DNA of 64,000 nt from Aphelenchoides besseyi (taxonomy: Eukaryota; Nematoda; Chromadorea; Rhabditida; Aphelenchoididae). Numbering within the stretch: the stretch's first letter is position 1; each line of letters starts with the position of its first letter. Location: assembly GCA_024699855.1 (NCBI GenBank), contig JAMPIQ010000002.1, forward strand, positions 5,270,001 through 5,334,000. Reading direction: 5' to 3'. Shown here piece by piece: positions 6,607 to 50,106 of this stretch. The notes under the pieces are model-generated. The model did no database searches and was not told the DNA's origin. It saw nothing but the letters and a program-made list of their open reading frames with translations. A program made the translations under genes and the position numbers.

Positions 6607-9600
6607 ATGAATGAGAAACAATTCTGGAATACGCCTTTGGCTGTTTGGTTACAGTTAGTGGTTTGTGTTTACGAACATTAAAGAGTTGGATTTTTCAGAA
6701 ACTCGATTCTCGAAACGGAATGGCAATCAAACCGATCTCTTTGTTACGCCGATTTGTGTGATGGTCATATTCTGACTCTTCTTTTCAATATCATGTTTGT
6801 TCTAGAAAGGTGTTCGATATGATGAATGTGTTTAGCGAACCGGATGTTTTGTCCCGAGATCATTGGGCGGAGAGAAGAAGACCGGATTCGTCTGCCGCAC
6901 CTCGAATACGCACCTATCGTCTTCTGTTGCGCAACGTATTATCGTTTTTCCATGTATGTTCGTTTTTACATGCCTGTTCGCATTTTTTATACGAAAACAT
7001 TTGAAATTGCAGGAACATTCGTTGTATCCAATCACTCTGCCCGATGCACTACGAATAGTCGAGGGACCGCCAATTTCAGGTTTGTTTGTCGATTGTTTTT
7101 GTAATCCAATCACTTGATAACAAGTGGACAGTTGAAATCGCCGCGTTTCCAACCGAAATTTGTTGCGACCCGGAAACTTGAGTCCCAAAATCGTTCTTCT
7201 CGCGAGCATATTTTGCATGTTCCGACTTATGCAATAGAGTGAATCGAAGAGGTCGTGTTTTACATCTGCTGAACAGCTGCGATTATCCGCTTCTTTCTGC
7301 CAATCATTTTAATTCAAATGAAGTGGCGGACAAATCAAAAACGTCTTTTGTTTGTGCGAGGATTGAAGTTAACTCACCACCAGCTCTTTGTATTCTTGAT
7401 TACTAGAAATCACTCATCCGTTTCGCGACCCAATTCTCATCATTTGTGTTATTCAACAATTGCATAAACGAAATAAAGTGAGCGGTTGAATGGAATGACC
7501 TCCGGACGTACAAACAGGATTCCCACTAATTTGTTAACCCGCAAGCATTCGAAATAAGTGCCGCTCGTTGCTCAGTCGGACATCGTCGGCTGGTCATTTC
7601 CATCAGTTATTAGCCACTCTCGGAATTCGCCCGGTCGTTTGAAGGTCACTTGCTCGTTTCCAACATTTTGATGTTTTTCGTTTCTGTTGTTCGTTTCCGA
7701 CTGCTCTCTTAGTCGATCCGTTCGATTGGCTTGTGACTTCGCCACTTGGATTCGAAATGCTTTTCAGCTGTGGATTTCAAACATCGACTTTGCAGCTGCT
7801 CGTTGATTTCGAGTGTATACGCGTGTCATAACAGCGGGTACCCTACGGTCATTGCTTTGCGGAGATCAAAGACGAGCCGCTAACTTAGAATCACGAGTAA
7901 AAGTTTTGAACGAAATTTTTCGTTTGCTTATCAGCACGAGTGGACGACCGTCTGATAACCGCGAGTCGCCAATCGAACGGCCCTCACGCAACAAACCGTT
8001 TTTCTGGTCTTTCCCGTTGACTATTCTTAAACGTACTCGTGGTCTTGCAATTGTACAAACGAATGCACAGCGGGAGCCGTTGCGCGTTCGGCTTTTAGCT
8101 CAATTGGCTTCACGGAGTATTTTGCATTGTGACGTCGTCCCCGTAACTCGCAAATCTTCGTATCTCGTTTCCGTTCACTTTATTACGCGCGTTTAAGGTC
8201 GTTGGTTTCGATTTCTGGAGAATTGTCGGTCCCGTCTTTCTTTGTTGTTACGCAATTCGTAATCGTCGAGGAATGCAAATGAACGCATTCCGTCAATTGA
8301 GGAGCGTCGGCTCTTAATTGGTGGACTTTCGGGGCGTTTGACGTCGATTTGTTTGCATCTTGATTGCAAGTCGTAGTCCCGATGAAAGGAACGTCGATCA
8401 GCTTTGAGCATTCAGTCGGGTTTTATCGCCGAATTCCAACTTTTCATCGATGACTACGCGAAGGATCGTGAGCAAAAGCTCGTAAGCACGGTCAACCTGC
8501 TGATTAAATTTTCCGCCGTACGACCGGTTTCCACTTTTTCAGGTGAACGACGACGTAAAAGCGGAACCTTGGGTTCTTTGCATGATGGCCAGTCGATGTC
8601 ATTCAAATGTAGAAGGCCACTAAATGTTAGTAGCTATGCTTCTTGAGATTGGCTTTGCAAGTGTTAACAGTCGACTACGAGAGTGCAATTCCGTTGATGT
8701 TAGTCGAGAAAGTGATGCAGTTTTGACGTCCATGAAAAGCGTGTCGACGTTCCGGTTGTTCTTCGACGTGAAACTTTCACATGCGCACGTAAAATACGAA
8801 AAAAATCATTACGTCCCGCGCGTCATTAAACTGCGTGGATCGAATGCCAAATTTTGATCGCCCTTTGATTGTGAAATTCCGCTTTTTCGAACACAAAAAG
8901 ACGCAATTCAGATTTTTCCCATCTTGTGCGCATCAGGAATCGTACGTCGTTTTGTTTGTCATTTCTGAGCACAAAACTTGACGGCAAACGATGGCGCGTG
9001 TTCTGTTGATTCTCGTCCACATTTTACAGCCGTTGAACTTGCTGGTCATCGGTCTTTCTCTCTCTCGACCTCGCGTTCAGTTTTTGGCCGTTCACTACCT
9101 TCTCGCTTTCGAAAATGTCGCGCGATCGTTTGCGCGTTCGATTTTCCACACGTTTTTGTGTATTTCCACGCCTCTAAAGTCCACGTTTCGCGCTCGTAAG
9201 TGGGTTTGATTGCAGAAAACAGTGGCCATGAGATGCAAAAGCTGCTCGGACTGCTTTTAGGAGCTGCTGTACATCATCACAACCAGTCGCCGGAGCTCGA
9301 GGCTTTGCGTTGTATGTCGGCGGAGAGTGAAGCGGCAATTATATCTCAATTGGCAAAAGTACGTCGATCACAGTCTCTAGGAAGAGCTTATTCTGTTTAG
9401 ATCACAGGCAATCAAGATCTGTTGATCAAATTGAAGCCGGGCGATTCTACTGAGCTAACCGATTCAGAAGTGGTGCGTCGATTGTTGGAGTCGTTGGCCG
9501 AAGAACGAGACGATTACGCTCTTCGACTACTGAAAATGGCCGAAGAAGCTGCTTCAACATCTTCAACAGATGTGCGTTCCCCATCTCCAAATGATGCAAA

Positions 9601-38505: not shown

Positions 38506-41500
38506 TCAAGACTCGACAGATTCTGCTGCTTCAATTTCGAGTAGTTGTTTTTCGACATCTGGATCACCTGAAACCTCAGACCACTTGTGTTCGATTATCT
38601 TCGAATCATCAACTTGCCTTCCATTCCCAATAGCCAAAATGTTTGCATGACACCTAAAATATGTTCTTACAGTGTCTATGATTATTGGTGCAAATTGCCT
38701 TTTCCATTAACAAGTATTTCGCCGCGTGATACGGTCAAATATCTACCAATCACTTTTGTAAGGTAATGGTTTGTGTCGGGAGAGATGTGAATACGATTAG
38801 CTGAAAGATCACGTGTGCAACTGATCTTTGGATTCGCGAATTTTGGAGTTTGTAGTCTTTTACTCATCGTTTGTGCGCGAACTTTGATACCTTAACGCTC
38901 CGAACAACCGAGACGTTTCTATTTGCAAAGACGTCGATTTCTCTCCGCAATCAGATGTCGCGCTCATAACTTTCAAACCACAATGAGTTGTAATAATGCG
39001 CTACGATCTTTAAAAATGCGATCCCAATGATACTTGTTTTTAGTTCCCGATCATAAACAACAAATGACATACGTTTGCCCTTGCTTTCCATTTGAGAAGC
39101 GATGTTGATCGAGTCGCCGAATAAGCAATAACTAAACAACATTTAAAAAACCTTGAACGATTCAATTACCGTGGCATTGCCAAACCCACGACTCCTGAAA
39201 ACAACAAGTAGTTTGTTGTTGTTTTAGTCTCCTTTCCGAAAATCTAGCAAGATATACACCAATCGACTTCGTTGATGAGCAGTGTCAATGGGACGCAATT
39301 TTCAGAAAGAACTCAAAATACAATAACTTCCCTGCAACCACCGGACCTGTGTGATTTCCAATCCTCAAACGAACTTCCTCTCCTGGCAAATGTGGAATTG
39401 TGAAGTGTTTCATGCTACGAACAAAACTCAAAGACATGTTTGCGATGTGGCGTGCATGTTCATTCCCATTTCTATGCGGGAGACCGCTAGTACACAAATA
39501 ACCGTCTAAAATAACGTTTTTAAACTCGAAACTAATTGTTGAGTTTCCTCCAATAGTCTCCACTTTGTACACATCGTGCTCACTGATAATCGAATCCAAG
39601 AGTGAGTATAAGGTATTCAACAAACTAAGTTCATTTCTATCCTTATTCTTTACACACGCTGCTTACTTAACAACTTGAAGCGGTGTACAACGACTTGAAA
39701 TTGTTGTGAAACCAACGACATCAGAAAAGAAGATGGTCACCGATTCAAAGGCCTCCGGTTCAACTGATTGTCCGAGTTTCAGTTTTTCGGCAACCTGTCT
39801 GCACAGTTAATGTTAAACTTAAATTTATACAAATAAACGAACTTTGGAAGCATTCTGTACAACAAAATATCGGCCTTCTTCTTCTCTTCAACCAACTCCT
39901 ATAATCTCAGAACATTTGGAACATAACATTCATTTCCATTACCCGTGTTCGATCTTCGATTTCAGATTCCAAATTCTAAAGCATTAAATGATATTTCAAT
40001 TTAGCTTGAATCAACTATACTCCTGCATAATTCTCCAACATCGCGAAAATGTGATCCATTAAATTGGAAGATCTAGAATTGAAATCATAAGGTCAGGTAT
40101 ATGTGGAGATACCGTGAAGTGTTCATTGACCCCAAAAGAGTGTAAATGGTTTCCACGCGTGGTCGTTCAGAACTGTTTTCACTCCAACAATCACGAATCA
40201 AATGCTGGAAAGCGGGACTCAAATCTTGAGCCACTGGATCAAGTACAGGCCTTAAGGGAGTCTTTCCGCCTTTCTAAATGCATCAAAAGTGTTAATTGAG
40301 ATACTGATACAAACTTTAATCATGTAGATGATATCTGAAAATACAAAATTGTAACAATGAACGTTTATTTACACTTACCATCAGTGTCCAATTTTGCTTC
40401 GCCCTCAAATGGTGGTTTCATGTTTCTATAATAGATCTTGTTGGTCATTTTTAACCGCAAACTCTTTACAATATCTCGCTAGCTATGATAGCAAACGAGT
40501 AGACATCACCGGCTTTACTCCCAATGAAGTTATTGTCTCGAAGATGTTCTGGTGAAGTCCAAAGCAAATCAGCCGGTTGTCGTGGTTGTGAATTGCGAAT
40601 AAACTTGAGTCCAAAGTCTGATAACTAAAATGAATGATCAGTTTTATTGCTTTGCTCATTTTGTTACTTTAACCAGCCATCGGTCATCGATGAGACAGTT
40701 TCTGCTCGTCATGTTTCCGTGCCAACCGACCGAACTTGCATGAATGTATTTCAATCCACTGCATATGTCTTTCACAAGTGAGAAAATGAAGAACGCGTCC
40801 ATTGTGGACAGCAACGAATTTCCCATAAGCACATCGCAAAGTGCACCACGATTGCAATAACGCCAAACCGAAATCGTCTCGGCTCCTCCATTCACTGCCA
40901 ATCCTACGAAACGGTTAATGTTATCGTGATCCATCGATCGCATCGATCGCATCTCGCTCATATCACTTGTGTTAATACGAACTTGTGTTGGCGAAATATT
41001 GTGATTCAAACCAATTACTCTTTCTCCAGCATAAATATAAACCGTATAATGTTTTGTCGACTTGACTGAATCAAACGTGAACTTTGTTGATGTAGTTGAC
41101 GGTCCACTTTGAATTGAACGAGCCGACTCCATCGCTTTGTTTTTGCTTGTCATTTGAACCAAATTTTGCATGTTCACTTGCCACATTCGATTTCGAGCCT
41201 CGATATCTTTCATACGTAATCTAATAGAATTGATTAAACAAAACGATTTCAAGACCAACCGGATAATGTAGACGATACCTCCAATTACTCCAAGTATCAG
41301 TAGTACACCGATCAAAATTGCGGCAATCATATAACCACGATATTCCGTAAAAAAGTCAATTGGACATCCTTTTCCATCTTGAATAAAAAATCACAGTTTA
41401 CACGTTTGCTTACAACGAGTACTTACCGAAACCACATTTTGGTGTTGACGGTGGATGAAAACCACCTCTTGATGCCCACATGGAATCTGAATCATTCGTT

Positions 41501-43624
41501 ATTGCACTGCTGTTCTGAATTTCCTTAATTATCCATTGTTGTCTCAAGTAACATGTTCGCTTACCACTCCACGATCCGCAACAACAAATGAAAGATAAGG
41601 CTTTAAGTTTCCTTTTTGATCAACATATACACTCAGCATGTAAATACTGTTTCTTACACCTAAAACAACATTTTCGATCTTTTTGTTCGATCAAAACTAC
41701 CGTCTTCACCAATGGCAACTGTTCCTGATAAACCTAAGACAATTGTAAGCCAAATCGACAACTCCCACCTTCGAATTCGATGTTTGAGTTTCGAGTTAAC
41801 AGCGTTCCATCTCGATAGTATTTTGGATCTGTGCCGGATGAATTCACAACCCGGCTTAAAGCCATAGCGTAGAGATACATTGCATCGTAAAGTGTTGATG
41901 CGTAAATTGATGCCTAAATTTGTATACTTCAATTATTTCTTGCATTTGAAAACATACTTCCGTTTGAGTCTTAGCACAATACTCACAATAAAACGGCCAA
42001 TCGGCCATTCGTTGGACAACTTCGGTGCTAAAGTTTGTGAAACTATCTGCTTCATCACTGAAACAAACAAATATACGAAAATGTTTGAATACACGAACAA
42101 ATCTAGCCTTGTTTTATCGACATGCAGCAGGAATGACCTAAACCAATAGCTCCTAAAACAAGATTGTTCTCACAAACCGTTGAACTATTTTCCACGATTC
42201 GGCATCCTTTCCATCGGTTGTTTTGTTCGTGTCAATCCAGAAAGGAGTATCAGTGAGACCTTCTGAAGTATGAGCTAAATAACAAAAGAACCTCTGCTTT
42301 TATATTGATTTCTATTTTGTTATGTTCAAACCACAAAACTAACCATTTTGCATATCTAAACTTATGCACTTTATACGCATATAATCTCATTAAGATCAAA
42401 CCTGTATCGACAAAAAAGTACTGCAAATCAAACTAATCATTAAACATTTCAACCGTGAACTCACAACATAATCGACCGTATCCATTCCAGCTTCCTCTAA
42501 CTTGATCGTAAACAACCGTTGTTGCACCGTATCATCAAAACATAACAATACAATTCGAGCTTTGGCTTTTATTTGTGATATTGTATACTGAATATCTGAC
42601 TCGGCCCAAGAATCGATAACTTCTTTATAGGAAATTACACAACGCTCTCGATCGTTCGCTACAGCTTCCATGTCTTCTTGAAAACTAAAACATCTGAAAA
42701 TGCAATCTGTTTCATTTCGACGTCATTTTCAAACTTACCCCCCATCTTCGTTTTGTTGGTAAATCAACGCAAAAAGGTCCCAGTTGTTGTAATTCAACGC
42801 TTCACAGAACACGTTCCCCAAATCCTGGTAGTTTGGAAGAACACTCATAACGGTAGGGTACGTTGATGCGTCTGTAAACTGTAAACGAATGCGATCAATC
42901 AAATCCTCGATTATGACTAACTTCGCTATCAAATGTGTAACCCCAAAGCATCACGGGAATATCGTAATAAGCTCCAACATGAGCAGCCAAAACAGCACTC
43001 TGAAACACGACGATATACTTTGTTTTATTCTGATAACAAACATCAATGCATGGAGGACTCAATAGTACGTCGACCTTTTTTTGAACGATCATCTCGAATG
43101 CATAACCGATGGCCGTCGATTCAACACATTCCTCGATCTTCCATGTAAAAGTAAAATTGGTTCCCGGAGGGAGAATCTTCTCACGATAAACTCGATCCAA
43201 CGCAATTGTAACCGCAGAAGCTGTATTGTCGTAGCCCATAGTTTTTGAGCGGTTAGAAGGAATCATAAGACCGACAAGAATGTGCAGTTGACCCTGAAAA
43301 ATAGATTAAGTTTGATGGTCGTTCAAAACTCACGGGTATTGTAACATTCACCGCTGGCGAAAGTGTCGGTAATAACGGTTGCAAACTAGCGGCTGTTGGC
43401 AAAGTTGGCAACGTCAACGGAGCAACAGTCGTAGATGGAGCGGCAGTCGGCACTTGTGCCAAAGTAACGGGTGGTTGTGTAGTCAACGAAATTGCAGGAG
43501 AAGTCGAAATTGAGCTTTCTAGTTCTGTTGTACCAGTAAACGTGAAATTGGTTAATGTGTTCAGCGGTCGAGTGGTTTCAATTTCTGTTAAAAACAGTAG
43601 AAGAAACAAACAAAATCTTGTCAT
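38506..43624 (-). CDS. Receptor-type guanylyl cyclase (copy 1), catalytic Arg replaced
   Basis: Single-pass receptor that would make cGMP; nematodes use many in sensory neurons. Start at 43624: signal peptide ([15 protein letters not shown]), a Thr/Pro/Ser-rich stretch, then an ANF-receptor-like ectodomain ([43 protein letters not shown]). TM helix [23 protein letters not shown]; kinase-homology domain with HGNMTSRNC in place of HRD, keeping SDFG. Cyclase domain: [16 protein letters not shown] and VETIG/DGYL (metal Asps kept), [33 protein letters not shown]. The last block normally reads NxASR; Gln stands at the Arg. With a GC donor the tail is [19 protein letters not shown], stop TGA 38506-38508; read through, the stop is at 38595. 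The model uses one GA, one GG and three GC donors, an unusual load. Confidence 0.88.
38568..38617 (-). other. GC-AG intron, last intron of cyclase copy 1
   Basis: Donor GAAG|GCAAGT, acceptor TTTCAG. Splicing gives an acidic tail ([19 protein letters not shown]); not splicing ends the protein at KLMIRR. Both are possible; the spliced form looks more protein-like. Confidence 0.5.
38654..38698 (-). other. GC-AG intron in cyclase copy 1
   Basis: Donor AAAG|GCAATT, acceptor TTTTAG, 45 nt. It joins NGKG to VMQTFWLLG, the conserved C-terminal cyclase block. Copy 2 has a normal GT donor at the same place ([12 protein letters not shown]). Confidence 0.7.
39195..39331 (-). other. Apparent GG-AG intron in cyclase copy 1
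   Basis: VVAG must join VVGLAMPR. The exon ends GTTGCAG and the intron begins GGAAGTTATT; acceptor TTTTCAG. No GT gives the right frame (the nearest, after GGGAA, shifts it). Copy 2 has no intron here. Confidence 0.55.
39506..39547 (-). other. Apparent GA-AG intron in cyclase copy 1
   Basis: VETIG and DGYLC flank 42 nt beginning GAAACT and ending TTTTAG. Splicing at GGAG|GAAACT restores the invariant ETIGDGY motif. Because 42 is a multiple of three, retention would insert 14 residues in the active-site loop. Confidence 0.65.
42058..42107 (-). other. GC-AG intron in cyclase copy 1 ectodomain
   Basis: Donor ACAAG|GCTAGA, acceptor TTTCAG, 50 nt. It joins LLHVDKT to [11 protein letters not shown], which lines up with copy 2 ([20 protein letters not shown]). 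No GT keeps this frame. Confidence 0.55.
42344..42355 (-). other. 12-nt microexon in cyclase copy 1
   Basis: ATATGCAAAATG flanked by TTTAG and GTTAGT. It supplies DMQN after VDT; copy 2 encodes the same stretch (FPDTDMQ) within one exon. Confidence 0.6.
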
Positions 43625-44867: not shown

Positions 44868-47800
44868 TCAATTGCTGTGATTTTTGAAATCATTGTACAT
44901 TGTTTGTGACGAGAATTCTTCGTCCTTCCCCAACAACCAATAGGTTTCCATGATCCCTAAAAGAGTAAACAGTAGATTTTTCGTGTTGTTTGAATACCTT
45001 TTCCTTTGATTAACAGTTCTCCACGACTCTCAGTTCGATAACCGCCGATTACGGTGTTCAAGAAATGATTAGTGGCTCCCGATAAATGAATCTTATCGGC
45101 TAAAAAAATTTTCATGATGTCATTTACGTATATCGTTAGGGAAACTTCAGTGTAATTTGAAACCCGAATTTTCAATTGCATTGAAGTTGTTCTTTTCACC
45201 GTACTCTTCATTACTTATTTTGTATCAATTTTGTCTCCGGCTTTTTAATGCGATTTACAACTTAAGCGAGTTAAAGCAAAAGCAGCTGAAATCTGAGAGT
45301 CGAATCGTCCGTTGAGCGTTTGCCGTTAAAAAGACGCGTAGTTTTGATCGAAAATTTGAAGACCGCTTGCGACCATCACCTCCAAACGTGCAAACCATAT
45401 TCTGAACGAAGAATAGGTACCCGTAAATAACTGCTGCCGCCGTTCTTTTGTTGGTCACTTCATCTAATAAACCCTGTGCTTTTGACGAAGACTATCGAAT
45501 CGTTGCGGTTAAAAGGCACTATAACCTCGTTTCCCTTTTCGCGCACAACAAACGACGTCGATTTGTCATCCGTAATTAACTAACACAGCGAAGACCGAAC
45601 TCACCTAAGCCATTACTTTGCATTCTCGAAGCTGTGTTGATCGTATCTCCGAATAAACAGTAACTAAACAACATAAACAAACATTTGAAAAAATCGAATT
45701 ACCGCGGCATCGCCAAACCCACGACTCCGGCGACAACCGGTCCGGTGTTTATTCCGATTCGAAGTCGAATTTTCTCGTCCGGCAAATGTGGAATTGAGAA
45801 GGACTTTAGAGCTCGTATAAAATGTAAACTCATGTTGGCGATATTTCGAGCGTGTTCGTTTCCATTACGTCTCGGTAATCCCGAAGCACACATGTAGCTA
45901 TCTAGAAAAATTCAATAACTAAAATATGATCTTCAACTTTCCTCCTATAGTTTCCACCTTGTAGACATCGTACTCGCCGATGATTGAATCCAGTAAACCA
46001 TATAACTCATTTAACAAACTATAGAAACCAAACGGTAACTTGAAACCTTCAAATCGTTAACCTGATCACTTGTAATGGAGTGCACTTCGAAACGATTGTC
46101 ACGAAGGAAACAACATCAGAGAAGAAAATCGTTACATTATCGTAGCCTTCAGGTTCCACTGACTGCCCAAGCTTCAGCTTTTCGGCAACAGTCCTGAAAG
46201 TACTTTAGCAGTAAAAACAATTTGACTACGGTAGTCATCAGTGTTTTCTGGGAAATGAGAGATGTAATTAAAACGTCGGCTTTCGTAATTTGCCGACCAA
46301 TGATTGGGCGAGGATCTAAGCTTACTAATCCGCCGCAATCGGACGCTTTTTTAGGGCTTCAGCTCTGGTTACTGTAAACTCACTCTGGCAGCATACGGTG
46401 CAGCAAGAGATCAGCCTTCTTCTTCTCTTCGACGAGTTGTTTTGTTTGCTCTTCAACTTCCTGAAAGACAACAATACAAAACACAATGGTCAAAAGTTAC
46501 CATTTCCAGATTACTTGCATGTTGTTCCAAAATCGAAAATACATGGTCCATAAGAGAAGTGCTTCTGAAATAAACGAAAAGTAATTTCCGAGTGTTAGCA
46601 AAAATTACCGTCCACCATTCAAAGACTTCAAAACCGCGCGAATTTGCTCACTCTTCGGTCGTTGAGCGGGTTCTTCACTCCAACAATCTCGAATCAAATG
46701 AAAGATACCTTGAGATATGTCGGGAATGTCCGTTTCAAGTGACGGTCTAATTGAACGAGCTCCACCTAAAAAGCTTGCAAATCAAATACTTCGGACTCCT
46801 TGAACCTTTTTTGACCAAATAAATGACCTCTTCGTGATTCCCTTTCAATTCGTTGTCCCAGGCCGGCTTCATTGTAATAATTTCACTACAAATAATTCCA
46901 AAAGCATACACATCCGATGGCTTAGTTCCTCTCGTGTCTTCACTTCGTAGCTGAAAGCAAAACAATACGTAAAACAAATTCATTCATTTTCACTTGTTCA
47001 GGAGAAGTCCATAACAAATCTAAAATTAAATAAAAACAACTGCATCTTTTTGTAAACCTTTTGCTTCGGGAGTTGACTGATCGCGCAGAAATGTCAATCC
47101 ATAATACGAGATCTTCGCTTGCCAACGATCATCAATCAAACAGTAGGAGGAACGTAAACGACCATGCACCTGCAACGCACTGCTGTGAATGTAGTGCAAT
47201 CCTTCGGCTAGATCTCTAATCAACGAGTAAATGAAGAAGGAATCAATGTTAATGTTTCCGCGTTCAATCACATCTTGTAAACTTCCTCGACCAGCAAATC
47301 GCCAAACTATAAATCCAAACATAACCAAAAGTGTTTGAAACAACGAACTCGACATAAACTCGGGTCCATCGATGCTCAAGCCCAAAAACTTGTTGATGTT
47401 TTCGTGATCACTCTGTCGCATAATTCGAAGTTCGAGCATGTTGTCCGCATTCAAAGAACGACGAACTTGGTATTTTCGGGCAATGACCAACTCGTTCTCG
47501 TATCGATACAAATTGAAGTTCTTCGAACTCTTCACCGTATCGAACGTAAATTTTGTGGATGTGGTCGATGGTCCACTTTGAATTGAACGTTGAGATTGTG
47601 CTTCGTTCTTTGATGTCACTCTCGTTAGGAGAGCGAAAGGAATTTGCCACATTTCGTTCAGACGACGCGTTTCTACTGACTTAGAATGTAGGATGTAGAA
47701 GTAGACGAACAACAAAGCGGCAATAATCAATACGACGATTATAATAACAGAAATAAACAGTCCTAAATAAGTCTGCCAAACCGGAGCTGGACAACCTAAA

Positions 47801-50106
47801 AACACCGATGCAGTAAAACGATCAGTTATTTTTGACTTACCTTTCCCATCAAATCCGCAAACCGGTACTGCCAGAGGACGAAAATTGTTTCGTGACGCCC
47901 AGATCACACTTTGATTTACCAGATCTGTGACATTAACCTCGGAACCGACAACTTGGAATAGAATCTAAATTCACTCGTATATGCATTCAAATATTTCCGA
48001 CTTACGTATTCATTCAACTGGTTCTTTTTGTCGTATTCTACGATCGTATTGATTATTTCATCTTATTTAAATTACCGCTTAGGACATAAGATGAATCACG
48101 AACTCCATCGGTTCCCATAACGACTCTACCGGTCAGACCTAAAGCCGTTAAAGTTCATTGTTTGCTCCAGTACTCACCTTCAAATTGCACATTTGAATTG
48201 TCACTAATCAAAGTACCGTTTTTTAGTGATTGAAGATCGTATCCACTTTGATTGATTGTTCGGGCCAAAGCGATACCGTACAAGTAGATAAGGTCAAAAA
48301 GATACGGAGAAAACATTGACGCCTTAAATCTTAGCCAGTTAAAACCAATGAGCTTGTTCCCTTACATTTGCTTTTTGATCACAAGTCGTACAGTAAAATG
48401 GCCATCCTTTCATTCGAGATATCAAATCGGCAGAAAAATTTTTGTACGTAAAAACTTGGTCACCAGCAACGGTTTCTTTGTTGGAGTGTAACTGAACAAT
48501 AATCTACGTTGTCTATTACACCATCCTACATCTACCTTAAATCTCACCTATAAACTTATAAGTTCCAAAAAAAGTTTCTTTTCGTCACCTGAAATCCGCG
48601 GCGTCCAATCACTTCAGCATCCGCATTTCGTCCGTCTGTTGGTGTAAACTGATCCACCCAAAATGGTTGTGTTCGATCGTCTAAACGTTTTAGTGTAATT
48701 ATTCCACCGTTTAAAAGCCATTCAACCACCAGCCAATAGCCTGAAAAGAAGACAAAATGATGAATCAACTCAAAGGCACTTGCATGTCGGTATCCGGAAA
48801 AATGTAAACGTATTCTTCGCTTGTTAGACCCGCATCAAATAGTGAAAGTGCAAACGATCGCTTCTGATCAGGATCATCAAAACACAAAACAACAATTCGA
48901 GATCGTTGCTGAATCATACTGATCGTATAATTAATGTCTTCTCTGAAAAACACTTTTAATCTCAAACAATTCTCTCGTGATTTTACGGATCCCACGAGTC
49001 GATGTTGGCTTTAAAACTGATCACACAGTCAGAACGCGTTGCAGTCGCCTTTTCCAAATCGCGTTGAAATTGAAAACACCTACGAGTAGTCAATAATTGA
49101 CGTATTTCTACTGTCAAACCGACCCGCTATCATCATCTGCCTGATAAATGAAAGAAAAGGATTCCCATTGAAATTTCTCCATCACATCGCAAACGATTTT
49201 CGAGAAACTGAAACAAGTTCACCGTCTACAATCATTGCCTACAATTCAGCTTACTCTCCATAAGTAGGCATAATGTTGATTACCGTTGGGAACAAAATCG
49301 GATTTGCAAGATCTGAAAATTGTGGTCAAATCGTCTAACTGTTCCCAAGATTCATTCAAATTTTCAGACCAAATAGTTAATTTCTCATTTTAATAACCAA
49401 CCTGAGACCAATGTTTGTCCATACATAAGAACAGCAAGATTGTAGTAGGACGCCAAATGACCTAAAATATCTGGATATGAGAACAGCAACAAAAGCCACC
49501 GGCCACTCGTGTTGTAACAATCGTCTTCCCCTCGCAACTATCTTTCAATAAAGTATTTTCTCTTTATTGTTCAATCAAGAATCCCGTCGCTTATTAAATT
49601 AACTGACCACTAACAGTCGCTCCCTTAAATTCGAGCATTAAAGGCTATTTAAGATTATGCGAACAAACATCGGTACATGGTGGTGCAATGAGAGCGTCGA
49701 TACTTTGATTCATTATCAATTCGTAAGTGTAACCGGCAGCCGTCGATTCGATACACTCTTCGAAACGCCAACTGATACTAAAACAAGAAGATTATAACCA
49801 GTTAGCCTATTAGTGTTGCAAAAGATTATGCAAAGAGGTTAAAGTTTACGTGAAATTAATCATATCGCGACTGAGAATTCGATCTCTGTAGATCCTGTCG
49901 ATGGCCATTGGCACTGCAGCCGCTGTGTTGTGGTAAGCATACGGTAAGCTCTCGTTTTGTGGAATGAGCATACCGAGTTTGATTTGCAACGGTATCGCAG
50001 CTGCAAGATTGTTGGCGAGACAGAAGACGATAAAAAGCCGAAAAGCTGACAGGTGGTTTCTTGCCAGTAAGGAAAACGAGCAAAAGCCGCCAGTCAGAAA
50101 TGCCAT
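44868..50106 (-). CDS. Receptor-type guanylyl cyclase (copy 2)
   Basis: Tandem paralogue of the neighbouring cyclase, same orientation and architecture. Start at 50106; signal peptide region [18 protein letters not shown], then [20 protein letters not shown]. Ectodomain blocks: [75 protein letters not shown]. The kinase-homology domain has [14 protein letters not shown] and ISYYGLTF, so both HRD and DFG are lost (copy 1 keeps DFG). Cyclase domain: [66 protein letters not shown] with the catalytic Asn and Arg intact, so it should be active. It ends [14 protein letters not shown]...KNHSN, TGA 44868-44870. All introns are GT-AG except one GA-AG (45902-45941). A long intron separates SNGL from ADKIHLS. 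Confidence 0.9.
45902..45941 (-). other. Apparent GA-AG intron in cyclase copy 2
   Basis: 40 nt between VETIG and DSYMC, beginning GAAAGT and ending TTCTAG (GGAG|GAAAGT). Read through, the frame stops after eight codons, so splicing is required for a functional enzyme. Same position and nearly the same donor as in copy 1. Confidence 0.7.

Follow-up and report, generated by a model that had tools for sequence, protein, structure and literature searches.

In two receptor guanylyl cyclase genes of Aphelenchoides besseyi, the codons for the catalytic motif VETIG-D(G/S)Y are interrupted by a short segment that ends in AG but begins with GA, and this raises the question of whether GA serves there as a 5′ splice site. 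The genes lie in a window, meaning the whole 64,000-nucleotide stretch of DNA that was analysed (G000:C2:5270001-5334000), and both are encoded on its minus strand. Copy 1 (38506..43624) was modelled by hand over its kinase-like and cyclase domains. Copy 2 (44868..50000) has an approximate 5′ limit, and our gene finder joins it to the gene lying upstream (to 53698). The latter is a distinct minus-strand gene that runs from 53698 to ~50300, directly upstream of copy 2, and by eye it possibly encodes a ZP-like domain. Copy 2 is matched best by guanylyl cyclases from Bursaphelenchus xylophilus (66%) and B. okinawaensis (64%), and the source genome is that of a nematode close to Bursaphelenchus. 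Our answer to the question is that both segments are very probably real U2-type introns with GA 5′ and AG 3′ splice sites, constitutively removed, and members of a class of GA-AG and rarer GG-AG introns that is small but spread over the genome.

The putative copy 2 intron is 40 nt long (45902..45941, minus strand) and reads GGAGGAAAGTTG..TTTTCTAGATAG in context, with boundaries GGAG/GAAAGTTG and TTTTCTAG/ATAG; exon, intron and exon together are ACTATAGGAG/GAAAGTTGAAGATCATATTTTAGTTATTGAATTTTTCTAG/ATAGCTACATG. Its counterpart in copy 1 is 42 nt long (39506..39547, minus strand), with boundaries GGAG/GAAACTCA and TATTTTAG/ACGG within ACTATTGGAG/GAAACTCAACAATTAGTTTCGAGTTTAAAAACGTTATTTTAG/ACGGTTATTTG. 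Both have G at +1, A at +2 and AG at the 3′ end. The initial annotation had placed the two segments correctly (45941-45902 and 39547-39506 as read on the minus strand), and its description of a GAAA(G/C)T start with A at +2, a TAG end and a preceding GGAG is borne out by the sequence of both copies. It had also called their length normal, and 40 and 42 nt are indeed typical for this genome, because the introns called by our own gene finder have a median length of 43 nt (5th to 75th percentile 38-45). Taking U2-type flanks to mean AG before the donor, AAGT at +3 to +6 and a TTTYAG-like end, we see such flanks in copy 2 (AG, then GAAAGT..TTTTCTAG) and, with a deviation at +5, in copy 1 (AG, then GAAACT..TTTTAG). 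By inspection, boundary shifts that leave the copy 2 mRNA unchanged give GG-TA or AG-CT, and therefore GA-AG is the sensible register. A further register, ATAG/GAGGAAAG, is still GA-AG but deletes the conserved Gly, and was not preferred.

Read-through of the copy 2 segment was said to hit a stop and shift the frame, and we do find an in-frame TAG and a length that is not a multiple of three. The copy 1 segment keeps the frame and contains no stop, which means that the frame alone imposes no requirement for splicing in this copy; read-through would place 14 extra residues immediately ahead of the catalytic Asp. Exact excision restores VETIG/D(G/S)Y in both copies, which fits the earlier claim that the segments interrupt this motif, and none of the relatives listed has an insert at the junction. 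Of the relatives listed, 120/120 carry the Asp without an insert, and Gly precedes it in 119 (P0078 has Arg). In an alignment with 12 nematode relatives, which we chose from the 120 listed matches, both Gly and Asp are found in 12/12 and VETIGDGYL in 11/12, the twelfth having VESVGDGTL, again with no inserts. The sequence thus supports the functional GA-AG interpretation, since no other reading brings back the motif in the two copies alike and both genes show protein-level constraint downstream of the intron. Constitutive removal of both segments would yield a complete cyclase catalytic domain.

A canonical option for copy 2 was overlooked in the initial annotation. From a donor GT lying 4 nt inside the GA segment to an acceptor AG 4 nt past its end, a 40 nt GT-AG intron can be drawn in frame (45898..45937, minus strand; boundaries GAAA/GTTGAAGA and CTAGATAG/CTAC), giving the product VETIGGNYMCA. 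There is no GT-AG reading for copy 1, where short introns within the segment were rejected by eye (inner GT donors leave ≤27 nt); copy 1, having no stop codon in the segment, would keep its 14-residue insert, and both cyclases would be altered or inactive. When limited to GT and GC donors, the gene finder picked 45937-45898, but it dropped this intron for the GA site once GA was allowed at a prior of 1%, the GA model scoring 6.9 nats above the best GT/GC model despite a GT prior of 96%. Offered GT and one other dinucleotide at equal cost, it chose the copy 2 GA site unaided; the copy 1 GA site was not chosen, and that segment was called as exon. Canonical splicing of copy 2 would also delete the Asp found in all 120 relatives listed, which we take to be the second metal ligand of the cyclase, and would use an acceptor, CTAGATAG, that deviates from TTTYAG, while the insert retained in copy 1 would have no counterpart at the junction in any relative listed. 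We consider this combination of outcomes unlikely, and GA-AG splicing of both copies remains the preferred reading.

If the two genes were instead decaying copies, their donors would have mutated and splicing would be failing, and the mixture of GA, GG and GC donors in copy 1 could be read this way. The GG-AG intron of copy 1 (39195..39331, minus strand; 137 nt; boundaries GCAG/GGAAGTTA and GTTTTCAG/GAGT) was identified by gene finder and inspection. It joins GPVVAG to VVGLAMPR, and read-through meets a stop codon. GT donors for this intron were rejected on inspection, as those lying after the exon end and before the stop are out of phase and an in-phase GT upstream deletes PVVAG. Downstream we modelled by hand a GC-AG intron of 45 nt (38654..38698, minus strand; boundaries AAAG/GCAATTTG and TATTTTAG/GTGT), and the gene finder called a probable GC-AG intron of 50 nt (38568..38617, minus strand; boundaries GAAG/GCAAGTTG and GGTTTCAG/GTGA) that results in an open C-terminus. 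Against decay, frames are open across the modelled kinase-like and cyclase parts of both copies, and a GA donor is likewise present in the gene of a conserved enzyme, prolidase. Furthermore, pN lies far under pS on either side of the introns. The copies are identical at 322 of 570 residues, with a pS of 0.75 and a pN of 0.31 across these codons; the corresponding values are 0.75 and 0.28 downstream of the GA intron (149 codons), and 0.79 and 0.22 in the interval between the GA and GG introns (58 codons). The low pN downstream of the intron indicates that the frame beyond it is in use in both genes. By this measure purifying selection acts on either side of the GA intron in these two old paralogues, and decay is very unlikely.

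To place the two introns in a wider context, scans were performed over the whole genome (47.4 Mb in 31 contigs, of which C1 has 18.1 Mb, C2 17.8 Mb and C3 10.0 Mb). The chromosome number given for A. besseyi is 2n=6 (PMC11555361). After training on GT and GC donors, our simple gene finder was run with GT and a single further dinucleotide allowed at equal cost. Over 192 kb containing 566 GT introns, the summed gains among 15 non-GT dinucleotides were 54.4 for GC, 15.2 for AT, 9.8 for GA, 7.5 for CT and 6.0 for TG, with others less. The summed GA gain alone does not single GA out, as it is below that of AT and little above those of CT and TG. The GA picks in this set include the copy 2 intron and an intron in a third cyclase (L021 1489-1450; gain 4.0) that joins HG to AYKVETVGD; the GG picks include 39331-39195. 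Two other GA calls are doubtful and were left uncounted: L010 2840-2566, which is 275 nt long and has a poor acceptor, and L031 6936-6995, for which a GC donor at 6954 is the better fit.

The genome-wide GA pattern, AGGAAAGTN{24,40}TTTYAG (i.e. AGGAAAGT..TTTYAG), matched 24 places, compared to 36 for the reversed-pattern control. The equivalent counts were 304 and 60 for the GT pattern AGGTAAGT, 4 and 19 for the GG pattern AGGGAAGT, and 212 and 321 for an AGHAAAGT control pattern. As the raw GA count shows no excess over its reversed control, only a coding-frame test can separate true GA introns from chance matches. In this test, performed with ~1.5 kb flanks and repeated with 400-base flanks matching the controls, GA was adopted at 6/24 places (L044, L048, L052, L056, L058 and L063); the others had GT introns or no gene model at the site, and one had a strong gene on the opposite strand. 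A non-canonical donor was adopted at none of 20 AGHAAAGT places, sampled as roughly each fifth listed row of the 212 (one-sided Fisher p 0.019 against 6/24). Three of the four GG-pattern places are one repeat, and GG was adopted at one place, L070. The L070 GG-AG intron (1537-1501, minus strand) lies in a histidine acid phosphatase gene, with its junction at residue 267.

Four of the six adopted GA places have their junction in a well-supported domain, and two of these are aligned across it to solved structures. The junction falls at residue 340 of the prolidase L056, gap-free there against PDB 5m4g; at residue 316 of the MsrA protein L063, aligned to 4u66, with a gain of just 1.8 nats; at residue 405 of L058 (UNC-79); and at residue 221 of L052 (ShK). 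In L048 it lies in a weak GNAT stretch that is below cut-off on its own, and in L044, although counted among the six, it is outside the MSP domain and in no other. A second GA intron in L052 (870-911) gains 4.4 nats alone and has no matched domain. Only this intron and that of L021 were not chosen for being GA, and beside 796 GT introns they give a GA frequency of ~0.25%, an approximate value that a simple gene finder yielded on sets of 124, 230, 184, 225 and 33 GT introns with some duplicated loci. In the unselected 50 kb set, zero GA introns were found beside 124 GT introns. GA-AG introns, with rarer GG-AG introns, thus appear to be a rare genome-wide class in A. besseyi.

These places also bear on sequencing or assembly error, under which the real bases at the two cyclase donors would be GT; GA sites are rare, and each is a single base away from GT. 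The initial annotation had argued from conservation in two copies against such an error, and the argument is strengthened here, as the occurrence of the same donor class in unrelated conserved genes speaks strongly against it. An error would need to have made the same change at +2 in both paralogues and again in eight other candidate introns, several of which are in conserved genes, and it sits poorly with the matched control dinucleotides, where 0/20 sampled places adopt a non-canonical donor. We regard it as very improbable.

How could such donors be recognised? Minor-spliceosome introns tolerate unusual terminal dinucleotides, and a U12-type origin might be considered for this reason. The donors, GAAA(G/C)T, are judged by eye to be unlike the ATATCCTT-like U12 motif, and the GA intron acceptors are similar to TTTYAG, the usual acceptor in this genome, making U12-type introns the least probable explanation that we weighed. 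Turning to the major spliceosome, the U1 5′ end is AAACTTACCTGG, identical and normal in 9/9 copies, and a genome search within 2 mismatches of AAACNNNCCTGGCTGGATGCTC returned no variant U1 besides these nine. A variant U1 was thus rejected as the cause of GA donors, as was an altered U6, the four U6 copies found having a normal ACAGAGA. The U1 start looks nematode-like, and U1 of C. elegans begins with the same bases.

We propose that ordinary U1 would pair with the GA donor in its normal register with a single mismatch at +2, and that strong flanking pairs would compensate, namely those of A+3, A+4, G+5 and U+6, often with AG before the donor and often with U+7. The U1 5′ end (AAACUUACCUGG) has A as its second base, which can pair with U at +7, and a duplex lengthened in this way may offset the lost +2 pair; G+1 would then serve U6 and the steps of catalysis as usual. 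T at +7 is found in 9/9 GA introns compared to 44/88 GTAAGT introns (p 0.004), copy 1, which is outside the nine, having C; we treat this as a lead only, since six of the nine come from a pattern fixed to +6 and the same would follow if a competing GT at +5 were avoided. Counts of U1 base pairs are biased by the search pattern and were set aside as evidence.

The age of the intron can be approached through the cyclase paralogues. Four of these (L022, L025, L026 and L032) have a canonical GT-AG intron that splits the Gly codon in phase 1, 3 nt upstream, and a fifth (L031, two neighbouring copies) has a GT-AG intron just ahead of the Ile codon; other cyclase paralogues have no intron here. The GA introns may be displaced forms of these or independent gains. 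In a tree of 29 sequences and 200 columns, in which 14/26 inner branches are open and some terminal branches are very long, copy 2 clusters with two proteins from Bursaphelenchus (97/93), and copy 1 is placed with P0011 of B. okinawaensis and P0021 of A. bicaudatus (89/92). If this grouping holds, the duplication predates the split between Aphelenchoides and Bursaphelenchus, and an intron at the same base in both copies is older still. It is a tentative possibility that the GA intron is ancient, stably retained from before that split, and that a standing class of GA and GG donors has been read by ordinary U1 in this lineage; the GA intron may also have arisen separately in each copy. Near-identical duplicated cyclase genes are seen elsewhere in the genome, at L031 and at L020/L028 (C1 7420780 and 7427506; C1 8744875 and 8815944).

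The human FGFR GA site was offered in the initial annotation as a parallel, and this comparison does not hold. That site is, like those described here, U2-like GA-AG and conserved in paralogues, but it is reported to be alternatively spliced and to need a GT six bases upstream (PMC4176328, PMC7072748, PMC5714493), which is present in 0/10 of our GA introns. Eurytemora affinis is a better analogue. Like A. besseyi, this copepod combines GA and GG donors with ordinary AG acceptors, with A at +3 and often AG before the donor, a normal U1 5′ end, splicing that is needed for the full protein, and no FGFR-like upstream site (PMC5714493). GG donors occur in the same genome as GA donors in A. besseyi also (window 39331-39195; L070 1537-1501). 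The two systems differ in frequency, GA and GG donors making up 10-12% of E. affinis introns (PMC5714493) against ~0.25% for GA here, itself a higher fraction than the 14 GA introns among 222,263 in human (PMC5714493). They differ too in that AG before the donor is obligate in E. affinis (PMC5714493) but absent from L021 (GGA/GA) and L052 870-911 (ACA/GA), which are two of the four GA introns found without an AG-containing pattern and have modest gains of 4.0 and 4.4. Finally, the copepod introns are young and species-unique (PMC5714493), whereas the A. besseyi intron is common to two paralogues and, if the tree holds, older than the Bursaphelenchus split. In Oikopleura dioica and E. affinis, GA-AG introns have AG before GA and A after it, as in A. 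besseyi, and one E. affinis U1 copy is reported to be variant, compared to 0/9 here (PMC7072748). In Trema orientalis, intron 12 of SYMRK resembles the cyclase introns in that one functional GA donor lies within the gene of a receptor, but it is a population allele derived from GC (PMC10668435), while the A. besseyi state is probably old.

We found no paper on nematode GA-AG introns in the literature, judged by titles and the start of abstracts, and on sequence grounds A. besseyi probably adds a new lineage to those with this type of intron, so far described mostly in a copepod and a sea squirt. Copepod genes have been truncated or mis-joined by predictors and mappers that reject GA and GG donors (PMC5714493), and nematode annotations may be affected likewise. 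With normal U1 and U6, and with one position kept in two old paralogues, a GA class of low frequency would be a clean case for studying how the spliceosome tolerates a wrong base at +2; if extended U1 pairing is true, +2 recognition becomes testable in C. elegans, a tractable test bed.

Non-canonical bases at +2 have been reported in nematodes as GC-AG introns, rather than GA or GG, in Globodera and other species (PMC4901422, PMC5906903), and Meloidogyne graminicola is reported to have varied minor non-canonical splice sites (PMC7593179). In our data, GC-AG introns make up ~2% of called introns (15 beside 662 short GT introns). They are also seen at window 48783-48741 and 916-956, and in L038, L039 and L041. 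An AT-AG intron of 42 nt with U2-like flanks (L027 165-206, plus strand; boundaries ATG/ATAAGTCG and TATTTTAG/GTC) lies in the kinase-like part of another cyclase, where it joins ADIYAFGM to VMYEILYRSLPYPE.
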